Assembly: GCF_022508225.1 (NCBI RefSeq)
Contig: NZ_JAETXJ010000002.1
Location: 310,001 to 374,000, forward strand
DNA from: Desulfovibrio sp. UIB00
GTDB taxonomy: Bacteria > Desulfobacterota > Desulfovibrionia > Desulfovibrionales > Desulfovibrionaceae
DNA length: 64,000 nt
Reading direction: 5' to 3'
In this document: positions 55,067 to 59,692 of the stretch, piece after piece
Layout: each line of letters opens with the position of its first letter
Position numbering within the stretch: the first letter of the stretch is position 1
Translations under genes and position numbers: made by a program
The notes under the pieces: generated by a model
Told to the model about the DNA's origin: nothing
The model's database searches: none
What the model saw: only the letters and a program-made list of their open reading frames with translations

Positions 55067-55546
55067 GCTGTTTTTATTTTGAAAAGTTGGATTGCCTCGC
55101 ACCAGTAGCGGGCGGCCCATTTTTTGTGTATAGTTAATCGCCTTTTTTGATCTTGTCCTTTCAGCAGTATTTCTGCTGAAGGGCTGACGTATCGCGCGTA
55201 GTCTAAAAAGGAGATGCAGAAGTGTGTTTCTTGCTTGTTGCACCCCGCCGTATCTGAAGATCGCTAATCGGGAACGGTTCTTCCCTTTGTTTTAAATTAC
55301 AATTAGCTGTAATTTTTACAATATTGCTTGTAAAACATAGTAGTTTGCCATGTTATATTGACTTTGTTTCAGAATGTGCCTACATTGTACAAGCTGCCCG
55401 ATTAGAATGGATGGAAAGCCTTATTGTTCTCATCACTGTAGTGACATGTTTAACTTCCTTATTTCTCCATAATATTAGTGAGTTACTGACCGATACTTTT
55501 TGTTCGGCAATAACATCACGCATTCTTTAAAGGACATGTTTGCGTT
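55067..55546. other. intergenic region upstream of hflK
   Basis: 480 bases, AT-rich in the right half. It contains a hairpin CCTTTCAGCAG / CTGCTGAAGGG at 55157-55183 (one G-U pair, no T-run) and the palindrome described at 55294-55315. An open frame at 55324-55530 has no ribosome-binding site and looks spurious. The promoter of the hflK operon is expected near 55300-55500. Confidence 0.55.
55294..55315. promoter_or_regulatory. perfect 8-bp-arm palindrome, probable operator
   Basis: AAATTACA (55294-55301) and TGTAATTT (55308-55315) are exact complements with a 6-base centre. Arm length and spacing suit a dimeric HTH repressor, and the hflKC operon that follows includes a CI-like regulator that could bind it. 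Confidence 0.45.
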
Positions 55547-56707
55547 ATGAATTGGGACTGGGACAAACTTCAGGAAAAAAGACAGAAGCAGGGTTCTAAC
55601 CCTCCGCCCCGACCTCCTCAGGATATGGATTCTGACGATATGGGGCAGGAAGAAGAAACCCCTCGTGCCAGGCGCACTCCTTTTAATAACGGCCGTGGCC
55701 CCGGTGGCGAAAATCCTTTTTCCAAAATAGCCCGCATGCGCTTTCCCAACGGAAGGGCGGCTGGCCTTGTGGGTTTTGCCATTGTGGTTCTGTGGCTTCT
55801 TTCGGGTATTTATATTGTTAATCCCGATGAACAGGGCGTTGTTCTGCGTTTTGGCAAGTATGACCGTACCGAAGGACCCGGCCCGCACTACGCGTGGCCT
55901 GTTCCTATTGAATCCGTATACAAACCGCAGGTAACGCAGGTTTTGCGCAGCGAGGTGGGCTTCCGCTCCGTTGGGCAGGCGGCCACGTTCCAGCAGGGGC
56001 AGTTGCGCACTATTCCGGAGGAAGCCTCCATGCTCACGGGCGATGAAAACATCGTCAACGTGCAGTTCAGCGTGCAGTACAAGATCAGCGACCCCGTGGA
56101 CTACCTTTTTAACGTAACAGCGCCCGCAGCGCTGGTGCGCAATGCCGCAGAGGCGGCCATGCGCGAGGTCATCGGCAACAGCCAGATCGACTCTGCCATT
56201 ACAGATGGCAAGCTGAAAATTCAGAGCGAAGCCACCCAGCTGCTGCAAACCGTGCTTGACCGCTACGGCGCGGGTATACAGGTGCTGGCCGTGCAGTTGC
56301 AGGATGTGCATCCCCCGCACGAGGTCATTGATGCCTTCAAGGATGTGGCAAGCGCCCGTGAAGACAAGAGCCGCATTATCAACGAGGCCGAGGCCTACCG
56401 CAACGAACTGCTGCCCAAGGCCCGGGGTCAGGCTGCCGCCATGGGCAACGAGGCCGCTGCCTACAGTGCAACGCGCATGCGCAACGCCGAGGGCGACGCC
56501 TCCCGTTTTGACGCCCTGCGCATCGAGCACGACAAGGCCCCCAAGGTCACGGAACAGCGCCTTTATTATGAAGCTGTAGAAGACATCCTTTCCAACGCGA
56601 ACGAAAAGGTGCTTATGGACAATCCGGCTGCTGGCCGCGCGCTGCCCTATCTCACCTTGCCTGGTCTCGGCGCTCCTGCTTCGCCCAAGACGCTGGAGAA
56701 GAAATAA
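55547..56707 (+). CDS. hflK: HflK (SPFH membrane protease regulator)
   Basis: 386 residues. A Pro/Asp/Arg-rich cytoplasmic N-terminus (1-68), one membrane helix (about 71-92, LVGFAIVVLWLLSGIYIV), then the SPFH/band-7 domain (NPDEQGVVLRFGKYDR, GDENIVNVQFSVQYKI) and a coiled-coil tail (EDKSRIINEAEAYRNEL). HflK with HflC forms a ring around FtsH and limits its proteolysis. Shares its stop with the hflC start. First gene of an operon that also includes a CI-like regulator. Confidence 0.94.
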   Translation: MNWDWDKLQEKRQKQGSNPPPRPPQDMDSDDMGQEEETPRARRTPFNNGRGPGGENPFSKIARMRFPNGRAAGLVGFAIVVLWLLSGIYIVNPDEQGVVLRFGKYDRTEGPGPHYAWPVPIESVYKPQVTQVLRSEVGFRSVGQAATFQQGQLRTIPEEASMLTGDENIVNVQFSVQYKISDPVDYLFNVTAPAALVRNAAEAAMREVIGNSQIDSAITDGKLKIQSEATQLLQTVLDRYGAGIQVLAVQLQDVHPPHEVIDAFKDVASAREDKSRIINEAEAYRNELLPKARGQAAAMGNEAAAYSATRMRNAEGDASRFDALRIEHDKAPKVTEQRLYYEAVEDILSNANEKVLMDNPAAGRALPYLTLPGLGAPASPKTLEKK

Positions 56708-57555
56708 TGAGTAAAAATCCTCTGGTGCTGATTCTTGTTGCTCTGGTACTGCTTATCGTTGTTACCCAGGGATTCTTTACTGTTCACCAGACCCAGAAGG
56801 CTCTGGTTTTGCAGCTGGGCGAACCGCTTTCGCGCGTGTACGGGCCTGGTCTGCATTTTAAAATTCCTTTCATCCAGAACGTGGTCTATTTCGATGCCCG
56901 TGTTCTGGACTATGAAGCGCGCTCCCGAGAGGCCTTTACCGTAGATAAAAAGGCCATTGTTCTTGATAACTATGCGCGCTGGAAGATTATTGATCCCCTG
57001 CAGTTTTATCGCACAATGCGTTCCATTCCCGGAGCGCAGGCGCGGCTGGACGACGTTGTCTATTCACAACTGCGGGCACTCGTGGGTGCGTATACCCTTA
57101 CAGAGGTCGTGTCCTCCCACAGGGCGGCCATCATGAAGGAAGTGACCAACAAGGTTTCCGACCTCATGCATGGCTACGGAGTCGAGGTGCTGGATGTACG
57201 CATCAAGCGTACAGACCTGCCACCTGAAAACCAGCGTGCGATTTTTGGGCGCATGCGGGCCGAACGTGAACGGCAGGCAAAGCAGTACCGTTCGGAAGGT
57301 GAAGAGGAGTCGACGCGTATTCGTTCCGATGCCGACCGCCAGCGCGCGGTTATTCTGGCAGAGGCGGCGCGCGCCGCGCAGGTTGAACGAGGAATGGGCG
57401 ATGCCAAGGCTGCGGCAGTTTACGCCCAGGCCTATAACAAGGCCCCTCAGTTCTATGCGTACCAACGCTGGCTTGACGCCATGCGTAAATCACTAAAAGA
57501 GAACAGCAAGCTGGTGCTTTCCAACGAAACGCCACTGCTCAATCAGCAACATTGA
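56707..57555 (+). CDS. hflC: HflC (SPFH membrane protease regulator)
   Basis: 282 residues: membrane helix (about 5-25), then SPFH domain (TVHQTQKALVLQLGEPLSRV, FTVDKKAIVLDNYARWKI) and the helical RTDLPPENQRAIFGRMRAER segment typical of HflC. Acts with HflK on FtsH at the periplasmic face. ATG overlaps the hflK stop by one base; GGAGAAG lies five bases upstream. The next gene begins 33 bases downstream on the same strand. Confidence 0.94.
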   Translation: MSKNPLVLILVALVLLIVVTQGFFTVHQTQKALVLQLGEPLSRVYGPGLHFKIPFIQNVVYFDARVLDYEARSREAFTVDKKAIVLDNYARWKIIDPLQFYRTMRSIPGAQARLDDVVYSQLRALVGAYTLTEVVSSHRAAIMKEVTNKVSDLMHGYGVEVLDVRIKRTDLPPENQRAIFGRMRAERERQAKQYRSEGEEESTRIRSDADRQRAVILAEAARAAQVERGMGDAKAAAVYAQAYNKAPQFYAYQRWLDAMRKSLKENSKLVLSNETPLLNQQH

Positions 57556-57588: not shown

Positions 57589-58281
57589 ATGCCCGGTTTT
57601 GCAGAGATATATGAACGCATCAAGTTGGCCACCAACAGCCGTACACAGGTTGAGCTGGCCGAGGTTCTGGACATCCGTCAGTCCAGTATTTCCGATGCGA
57701 AACGGCGCAATTCCGTGCCTGGTGACTGGTTCATGAAGCTTTTCGAGAAGTTTGGGCTGAACCCTGACTGGCTCAAGCAGGGTGTAGGCCCCATGTACTT
57801 GCGCACCGAGCAGGGCTACGTGCCTGAAGACGCACCGGCCTCACTTGCCGAAACAGCTGCCCACTATGGCGATGCCATGGCCCGTGGTGGCATCCATTCC
57901 GTGTACGACGCCAAGTGCGTCTACAATGATGATGCCCCCCGTCCTGCCCTGGCTCTGGCGGGCAAGATATCGCTGCCGCTTTCACTCACACGTGACGGCC
58001 TTCAGGTGCTGCGGGTGCGCGGCGCCAACATGGCCCCCCTTATCTCGGAAGGGGCGCATGTGGGTGTGGATACAATGGATACGGATGTGGTGTCTGGCCG
58101 CATCTATGCCATTTTTGCTCCCAATGAGGGCGTAGTGCTGCGCAGGGTGTTTTTGAACAGCACCCAGGATGGCTACGTGCTGCGCTCCGAGGCTGCAAGC
58201 TTCCCCGAAACCCAGTTGGCTGCGGGCCTGCTTGCCAAGCGCATGCTTGGCCGCGTGGCGTGGGTGTTGCAGGAAGTGTAG
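57589..58281 (+). CDS. CI-like regulator with inactivated S24 (LexA-type) domain
   Basis: 230 residues. N-terminal phage-CI-type HTH (TQVELAEVLDIRQSSISDAK at about 19-38, then DWFMKLFEKFGLNPDWLKQG). The C-terminal half is an S24/LexA-fold dimerisation domain, but where LexA and CI have the Ser-Met nucleophile motif this protein reads RGANMAPL (Asn 147), and the general-base Lys position is Arg (VVLRRVF, Arg 185). It is therefore unlikely to self-cleave, so SOS cleavage control should be absent. Sited 33 bases after hflC; AGGAG precedes the ATG at 57589. It probably senses a ligand or partner instead. Confidence 0.85.
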   Translation: MPGFAEIYERIKLATNSRTQVELAEVLDIRQSSISDAKRRNSVPGDWFMKLFEKFGLNPDWLKQGVGPMYLRTEQGYVPEDAPASLAETAAHYGDAMARGGIHSVYDAKCVYNDDAPRPALALAGKISLPLSLTRDGLQVLRVRGANMAPLISEGAHVGVDTMDTDVVSGRIYAIFAPNEGVVLRRVFLNSTQDGYVLRSEAASFPETQLAAGLLAKRMLGRVAWVLQEV

Positions 58282-58285
58282 AAAA

Positions 58286-59692
58286 ATGATGCTGCAACCG
58301 GCTTTTGCCGTTCATTCGTTTTGCCGAAGAGCCTGGTCGGTATGTGGTCTTGCGGGCTGTCTGCTGCTGTGCGCCTGTAGCGGCGCACAGACAGCGGCCT
58401 CACGCGGTGGGGACGGTATTACATCGTATGATTTGCCGTCCTCTCCTGCTGCAAGCCAGCCTTCCTACAGCACGGCTGGGGCACCTCCTGCCGCTTCGCC
58501 AAACACGGGGCAGGGCTATGCGACCCCCAATTATTCCGGCGGTTATTCCGGCGGGTATGCGGGGGGGAGCAGCGGTGCGGGCACTACGGCGGCTCCAAGC
58601 TATGGCGAGCCGCAAAGTCAGGCTCCTGGCTATGCCGCGCCATCTCCAACATATGCGCCCACGCCTGCGCCAACATATACCCCGTCATACCAGCAAAGCC
58701 AGCCGCAACCAGCGGCAGGCTCCGCTGCCATTGCTCCGGCATGGCGGCCCTTGGCTGATCGGCTTGCGGCTGACGGGCTTTCTGGTCCACGGGTGAACGC
58801 CCTGCTGGCTACGCTCAGCGCCACGCCCACGCAGTCGCCCATGGGCAGGAAAATGCGCGAGCTGTATAACCGTAAATTTTTCCCCAAGCCGCCTTCCACC
58901 GCGCCTGTGGCCCCGTATTACAAGGGCGTGCTGACCGATGCCAACGTGCAGTTGTGCCGCCAGTTTGTGGCGCAGAACAAGCGGGCGTTTGATCAGGCCG
59001 AGGCCCGTTTTGGCGTACCTTCATCCATAGCGGTATCCCTGCTGTTTGTGGAAACCCGCCTTGGCAAGGTGCTGGCTGACGTGCCGGAAAATGCCTTTTA
59101 CACGCTTGCAAGCATGTCGGTAACGCGTCAGCCCTCTGATATTCCTGACTGGCTGCCGCGCATGCCCGGCTATCAGGAGCATCTCGACTGGTTTGCTGAA
59201 ATCATGCCCAAACGGGCAGATTGGGCCTACAAGGAAGTAAAGGCCCTGGTGGAGCACATGTTGCGCGACAATATTGATCCGCACCACCTGCCAAGCTCCA
59301 TTTACGGGGCTGTGGGCCTTTGCCAGTTCATGCCTTCCAATATTGCCACGTATGGCGCGGACGGCGACGGCGATGGCAAGGTTGACCTGTTCACCATCCC
59401 CGATGCTGTGGCAAGTCTTTCCAATTATCTCGCCAAACATGGCTGGAAGCCCGGCCTGCCACGCACTCGGCAGCATCAGCTGCTCATGGCCTACAACCAT
59501 GCCGCCATCTACGCCAACACCATCATGGCCTTGTCAGACATGATCAACGGCGCGCCTTCGCCCGAGGCCTCGGCCAAGGCAGCCCCGGCCACTGCGGGCA
59601 AGCCTGCATCGGCAAAAGCTGGCAAGGCCGCTCCGGCCAAGGCTGCCAAACCTGTGAGCAAGGCTCCAAAACCGGTTAAGCCCGCAAACTGA
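58286..59692 (+). CDS. MltB-family lytic transglycosylase lipoprotein
   Basis: 468 residues. Lipoprotein signal: basic N-terminus, hydrophobic core and lipobox LCAC. The mature chain begins with a long Ser/Gly/Pro/Tyr/Gln-rich linker (about 30-150), followed by the SLT_2 catalytic domain with Glu in SLLFVETRLGKVL, SIYGAVGLCQFMPSNIATYG and LMAYNHAAIYANTIM. It would cut glycan strands to 1,6-anhydro ends in the periplasm. The last 45 residues are an Ala/Lys/Pro repeat tail of histone H1 type. AGGAAG lies nine bases before the ATG at 58286. It follows the CI-like regulator by only four bases. Confidence 0.9.
   Translation: MMLQPAFAVHSFCRRAWSVCGLAGCLLLCACSGAQTAASRGGDGITSYDLPSSPAASQPSYSTAGAPPAASPNTGQGYATPNYSGGYSGGYAGGSSGAGTTAAPSYGEPQSQAPGYAAPSPTYAPTPAPTYTPSYQQSQPQPAAGSAAIAPAWRPLADRLAADGLSGPRVNALLATLSATPTQSPMGRKMRELYNRKFFPKPPSTAPVAPYYKGVLTDANVQLCRQFVAQNKRAFDQAEARFGVPSSIAVSLLFVETRLGKVLADVPENAFYTLASMSVTRQPSDIPDWLPRMPGYQEHLDWFAEIMPKRADWAYKEVKALVEHMLRDNIDPHHLPSSIYGAVGLCQFMPSNIATYGADGDGDGKVDLFTIPDAVASLSNYLAKHGWKPGLPRTRQHQLLMAYNHAAIYANTIMALSDMINGAPSPEASAKAAPATAGKPASAKAGKAAPAKAAKPVSKAPKPVKPAN

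Follow-up and report, generated by a model that had tools for sequence, protein, structure and literature searches.

In the window, by which we mean the whole 64,000-nucleotide stretch of Desulfovibrio sp. UIB00 DNA analyzed here, a gene for a CI-like regulator lies between hflC and a gene for a lytic transglycosylase lipoprotein, and both catalytic residues of its S24 domain appear to be replaced. The question raised by this locus is whether such a regulator can still inactivate itself by cleavage and, if not, what its S24 domain does and why the gene is kept beside hflKC. The reading that we favor, with a probability of about 0.68, is that of a chromosomal, long-kept regulator of the Cro/CI-LexA type, blind to SOS, with an S24 domain that is structural and not a peptidase, and made as a product of hflK-hflC-CI-mltB. 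It is based on the residues, the fold, the missing cleavage dipeptide, conservation, repeated loss, purifying selection and synteny. The features are collected in Table 1.

Table 1. Features of the regulator locus, in window positions
Feature	Position	Strand	Basis
Two adjacent TTACA..TGTAA-type inverted repeats	55297..55312 and 55316..55333	.	candidate operator of the first-pass annotation
hflK promoter candidate TTGACT-N17-TACATT	55358..55386	+	relatives share CTTGACC-N15-CCTATTT
hflK	55547..56707	+	TIGR01933, 281.9 bits
hflC	56707..57555	+	TIGR01932, 221.5 bits
CI-like regulator, 230 aa, dyad-less S24 domain	57589..58281	+	ORF translation, Pfam, alignments
HTH domain, aa 1-72	57589..57804	+	PF07022; column entropy; dN/dS
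S24/LexA-like domain, aa 129-214	57973..58230	+	PF00717; model; Foldseek; VIA
Codon AAC, Asn147 at catalytic Ser position	58027..58029	+	sequence, alignments
Codon CGC, Arg185 at catalytic Lys position	58141..58143	+	sequence, alignments
MltB-type lytic transglycosylase lipoprotein	58286..59692 (start inferred)	+	SLT_2, 170 bits; lipobox by eye

Translation and alignment confirmed the replacement of Ser by Asn147 and of Lys by Arg185 that the first-pass annotation had reported. Aligned with dyad-bearing S24 proteins, the two residues occupy the columns of Ser and Lys with no shift; the segment GANMAP pairs without gaps with the SM motif of S24 proteins, and Met148 directly follows Asn147. The HTH and the S24/LexA fold, which had been described as intact, are both present. 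Phage_CI_repr (PF07022) matches aa 8-70 with 37.4 bits against a Pfam cut-off of 22, and Peptidase_S24 (PF00717) matches aa 129-214 with 28.7 bits against 23.3. A fold predicted from the single sequence had a pLDDT of 36 and was not used. The model built from 17 orthologues reaches a pLDDT of about 84-93 in the C-terminal domain (aa 100-230), with lower values in the HTH, where confidence is low. LexA, 186 CI and lambda CI are among its Foldseek neighbors, and the best structural match found by VIA was LexA (3k2z, Z 15.9, rmsd 2.4 over 122 residues). A search of PDB sequences with the family profile gave 2FJR as the sole match (E 0.038, aa 6-73).

Conservation was followed first within the genus. 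Searching 79 genus genomes and the fetched stretches yielded 37 full-length copies, each of them between hflC and the MltB-type gene; repeat fetches of a place already counted were left out of the residue count, as were the frameshifted L043, L047 and L002. All 37 of these orthologues carry a replaced pair in the multiple alignment, N/R in 33 and A/R in four. Since every full-length hflC-adjacent genus orthologue compared has N/R or A/R, the double replacement is more than chance. Two extra diverged copies away from hflKC were seen in one genome (L041 and L042 in G007), with Ala-Ala for Ser-Met and Arg for Lys.

The regulator is widespread in the family: with a threshold of E 1e-20, matches occur in 220 of 288 Desulfovibrionaceae genomes and in 42 of 44 genera. 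A class sample of 149 genomes, most of them Desulfovibrionaceae, gave a single genome outside the family among the matches listed, and that one matched weakly. Of 125 confirmed loci, 80 were retained in a scan of genome contigs. A usable match was present at 183 loci, and these gave 122 distinct proteins for alignment once duplicates, sequences with internal stops or X, and best CI matches below about 180 residues in length had been dropped; the set includes a few copies not seen beside hflC (e.g. L041, L042, L048, L180 and L181). Their residue pairs are N/R (37), G/R (25), S/R (15), A/R (13), S/K (13), G/K (12), A/K (6) and N/K (1), so that Ser, Lys or both are missing in 109 of 122. The first-pass annotation had asked whether homologues might carry an intact Ser and Lys at shifted positions; the 13 relatives that keep both have them at the same, unshifted columns. 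Position 147 is always S, N, G or A, and position 185 always K or R (122/122). A small character at 147 and a basic one at 185 are kept, although catalysis is not. Three more divergent proteins at the same hflC-adjacent place (L227-L229) have A, G or C in the Ser column and R in the Lys column. In genus g39, two CI-like gene copies stand side by side (e.g. G261:C1:99814-101426).

On a tree of these proteins, made by a quick method and with several long branches, the minimum number of changes is 26 in the Ser column and 7 in the Lys column, and the passage between intact and broken dyad takes at least 8 changes, 6 of them forced by starred branches; these counts do not tell gain from loss. The DNA-reading helix (aa 29-40) is nearly invariant, with a mean column entropy of 0.14 bits over the 122 proteins. 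In this chromosomal lineage, present in nearly all sampled genera, the helix is near fixed, and S, N, G and A replace one another freely at the position of the catalytic Ser. The natural series S/K, S/R, G/K, G/R, N/R and A/R offers a way to ask what a non-cutting S24 domain is for.

Self-cleavage also depends on the site to be cut. We looked for an Ala/Cys-Gly dipeptide within 28-46 residues before Ser, where it is expected about 35 residues upstream. Ser, Lys and this site are all retained in 23/23 genus paralogues of the same architecture, many of which are orthologues of one another and do not count as 23 independent cases, and in 6/6 phage repressors taken from the 34 matching phage records. 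All three are missing from the window protein. On its own the dipeptide test is loose, because many dyad-broken members carry [AC]G in the stretch (17/25 G/R and 14/15 S/R); the dipeptide is missing from it in 12/13 S/K family members. With the dyad replaced in the whole genus set and the dipeptide absent from the window copy, the earlier expectation that autocleavage should be lost is strongly supported at the sequence level. Locked in its uncleaved form, without RecA-stimulated self-cleavage, the regulator would be blind to RecA and thus to SOS. Its S24 domain would then have a structural role, forming dimers and possibly binding a partner, with no peptidase activity.

According to PMC7101444, LexA-like regulators are defined by a conserved site of cleavage and a Ser-Lys dyad that is highly conserved. 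The regulator departs from this norm, to which 186 CI is already a known exception (PMC12984324). With LexA, lambda CI and UmuD it shares the S24 domain and, UmuD excepted, the HTH, but it differs from them in having neither the Ser-Lys dyad nor the Ala/Cys-Gly site. The closest precedent is 186 CI itself (PDB 2FJR and 2FKD), with the same HTH class and a LexA-like fold (VIA Z 11.7-12.1). The window protein has both traits of that type, an HTH above the curated cut-off and a LexA-fold C-terminal domain without the canonical dyad. According to PMC12984324, 186 CI also lacks the canonical dyad and has Arg at the position of the catalytic base, in contact with an oxygen of the Omega-loop main chain; the K-to-R change therefore has a possible structural reason. 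The two differ in that 186 CI is a phage gene, whereas ours is chromosomal. In addition, 186 CI has its nucleophile segment deleted and its Omega loop shortened (PMC12984324), whereas the window protein retains the SM-motif segment, altered by point replacements. SipA of Streptococcus pyogenes (PDB 4N31, VIA Z 9.1) belongs to the same superfamily and has kept the fold while losing the catalytic residues (PMC12984324), but is a signal-peptidase homologue in pilus assembly and does not bind DNA. A literature search, with most subscription journals outside its reach, found no paper on the regulator gene.

The regulator had been placed in an operon with hflK, hflC and an MltB lipoprotein. Both hflK and hflC score above their NCBIfam equivalog cut-offs, and the order hflK-hflC-CI-mltB is conserved in the genus. 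The name MltB had to be softened: the gene downstream of CI scores 111 against an equivalog cut-off of 281.4, and MltB-type is therefore the safer name. Its start is likely near 58286, and not at the mechanical ORF start at 58169, judging by eye from a signal peptide and lipobox. The CI start codon lies 33 nt past the hflC stop codon, and a search of this gap on the + strand for terminator-like and promoter-like sites listed none. Upstream of hflK, the equivalent of the promoter candidate is strongly conserved in CI-bearing and in some CI-less relatives among the Desulfovibrionaceae; a strict form of the motif shared by relatives, CTTGACC-N15-CCTATTT, occurs in 61 of 95 hflK upstream regions, against a shuffled mean of 0.18. 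This motif fits sigma-70 as TTGACC-N17-TATTTT, and fits the sigma-32 consensus partly, given for Desulfovibrio as CTTGAAA-N11/16-CCCCAT in PMC545781. Sigma-32 control of hflK is left unclaimed, because the matches in three genomes numbered 3, 3 and 2, against 2, 3 and 3 in the reversed control.

For dimer formation, the DNA target, co-transcription, the physiological role and the way of relief, we infer a scheme as follows. In the window's genus, CI would be expressed third in the unit hflK-hflC-CI-mltB, driven by the conserved hflK promoter. The uncleaved regulator would most likely feed back on this unit and/or on other envelope or proteostasis genes, and its relief may come from autoregulation only, from trans-proteolysis, or from an antirepressor or ligand.

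The locus connects a CI-type repressor to hflKC, whose genes were first known from the control of lysogeny. CI stands beside hflKC in many genera, but the link is not tight. At least 14 listed genomes of genus g24 carry CI, and no hflC match (E 1e-30) was found in any of these; two g24 loci have CI without an hflKC match in the 10 kb fetched. Counted from listings in the window's genus, where some assemblies are incomplete, 72 genomes bear hflC, with CI in 39 and no CI match in 33. At 14 CI-less loci, which were picked from hflC matches and so have hflC by choice, the MltB-type gene comes after hflC in nine, and TolQ/TolR-like genes, named by eye, in five (L214, L215, L218, L221 and L223). The arrangement of CI with hflKC is thus old and often kept, but not obligatory: g24 has CI without hflC and 33 of the 72 have hflC without CI, so neither needs the other. 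The persistence of the regulator without hflKC in g24 weakens a role limited to hflKC. The proposal of envelope-linked rather than SOS-linked control gains from the conserved gene order and from the lack of a + strand terminator before CI, and loses from the separability of CI and hflC; it is plausible but weaker.

FtsH turns over lambda CII, and HflKC modulates that turnover. The regulator might likewise be degraded in trans by FtsH with HflKC, by Lon or by ClpXP, with envelope or heat stress relieving repression, and the operon would then encode both a regulator and a modulator of its protease. The neighbors hflK and hflC and their conserved synteny agree with this, as does IrvR of Streptococcus mutans, a LexA-like chromosomal regulator outside the RecA paradigm that carries a ClpXP degron (PMC7101444). 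IrvR differs, however, in keeping its catalytic residues and in needing autocleavage (PMC7101444), and the g24 genomes carry CI with no hflC match, so that we give relief by trans-proteolysis an outside chance.

Phage 186 CI is switched off by the Tum antirepressor. By analogy, the S24 domain may be kept as a surface where a small antirepressor or a ligand docks and causes the release of DNA without any cleavage, in the manner of 186 Tum or of smORF inducers. The small residue at 147 and the basic one at 185 throughout the family would suit a kept pocket, as would the main-chain contact of the 186 CI Arg (PMC12984324), and a small phage protein inactivates a cI without autoproteolysis (PMC10432266). 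The chance of such docking is slim. A bolder version, in which the self-cleavage switch was discarded repeatedly across the family and the dead pocket became a sensor of membrane proteostasis through the HflKC-FtsH modulators of the same operon, is a long shot.

Our preferred reading, a maintained chromosomal regulator, was compared with decay. Among 15 genus members the HTH has a median pairwise dN/dS of 0.019, compared with 0.208 in the linker and 0.161 in the S24 domain, from pairs restricted to dS 0.1-2 (81, 72 and 94 of 105, respectively); the values are rough because dS is near saturation. The S24 domain is under purifying selection and the recognition helix nearly invariant, which argues for a maintained regulator and not a decaying one. 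It is not essential, being missing in about half of the hflC-bearing genus genomes and frameshifted in a near-identical relative. In that relative, 99% identical (genome G001, L043:4664-5352), a one-base frameshift interrupts the CI copy within a run of C; it may be real, phase-variable or a sequencing error. Among phage records, 34 of 50,697 match the regulator, all below 60% identity and at about 25-29% in the 20 listed, and one IMG/VR match has 23%; with phage relatives so remote, the gene now belongs to bacteria, wherever it came from. As for prophage traits, its neighbors are hflK, hflC and the MltB-type gene, and not phage genes. A domesticated prophage repressor that lost cleavage as nothing depended on CI, and is drifting to loss, would agree with the CI-type HTH, with distant phage repressors such as that of Desulfovibrio phage ProddE (26%), with the clean absence of CI between hflC and the MltB-type gene in 9/14 CI-less loci and with the G001 frameshift, but purifying selection on both domains, the matches in 220/288 genomes and 42/44 genera and the same place beside hflKC in many genera make it unlikely.

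The target of the regulator was sought upstream of hflK and of CI. The first-pass annotation had proposed an operator at 55290-55320, and this did not hold: the exact repeat is found at the homologous place in one (L071) of 71 listed hflK upstream regions, which include some duplicates of one genome. The exact form TTACA-N4..10-TGTAA is retained in L071 only; L043 and L049 have a degraded version of it. All three of these relatives, whose CI is more than 95% identical, have lost the second repeat (55316-55333). The repeats at 55297-55333, not being conserved, are probably outside the system. Just upstream of them, at 55270-55285, lies a terminator-like hairpin (GGGAACGGTTCTTCCC) with a T-rich stretch after it, which probably ends the preceding transcript. 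Searches for enriched gapped palindromes upstream of CI (53 representatives, a set confounded by hflC coding sequence) and of hflK (38) gave nothing convincing, and no operator was found by homologous-repeat, palindrome-enrichment or motif searches.

In most of 13 aligned loci, several of them Pseudodesulfovibrio-titled, GGGA-N5-TCCC repeats precede CI. They were not seen in the aligned Humidesulfovibrio-type loci, which have an almost identical recognition helix, and are not enriched genome-wide in five genomes (16, 12, 18, 12 and 13 occurrences against 28, 23, 14, 19 and 10 in the reversed control). Local autoregulation through these repeats is possible. They are often tandem and lie near a TTGACA-like box of the regulator gene (L118, L122, L126, L127, L129, L130, L133 and L145).
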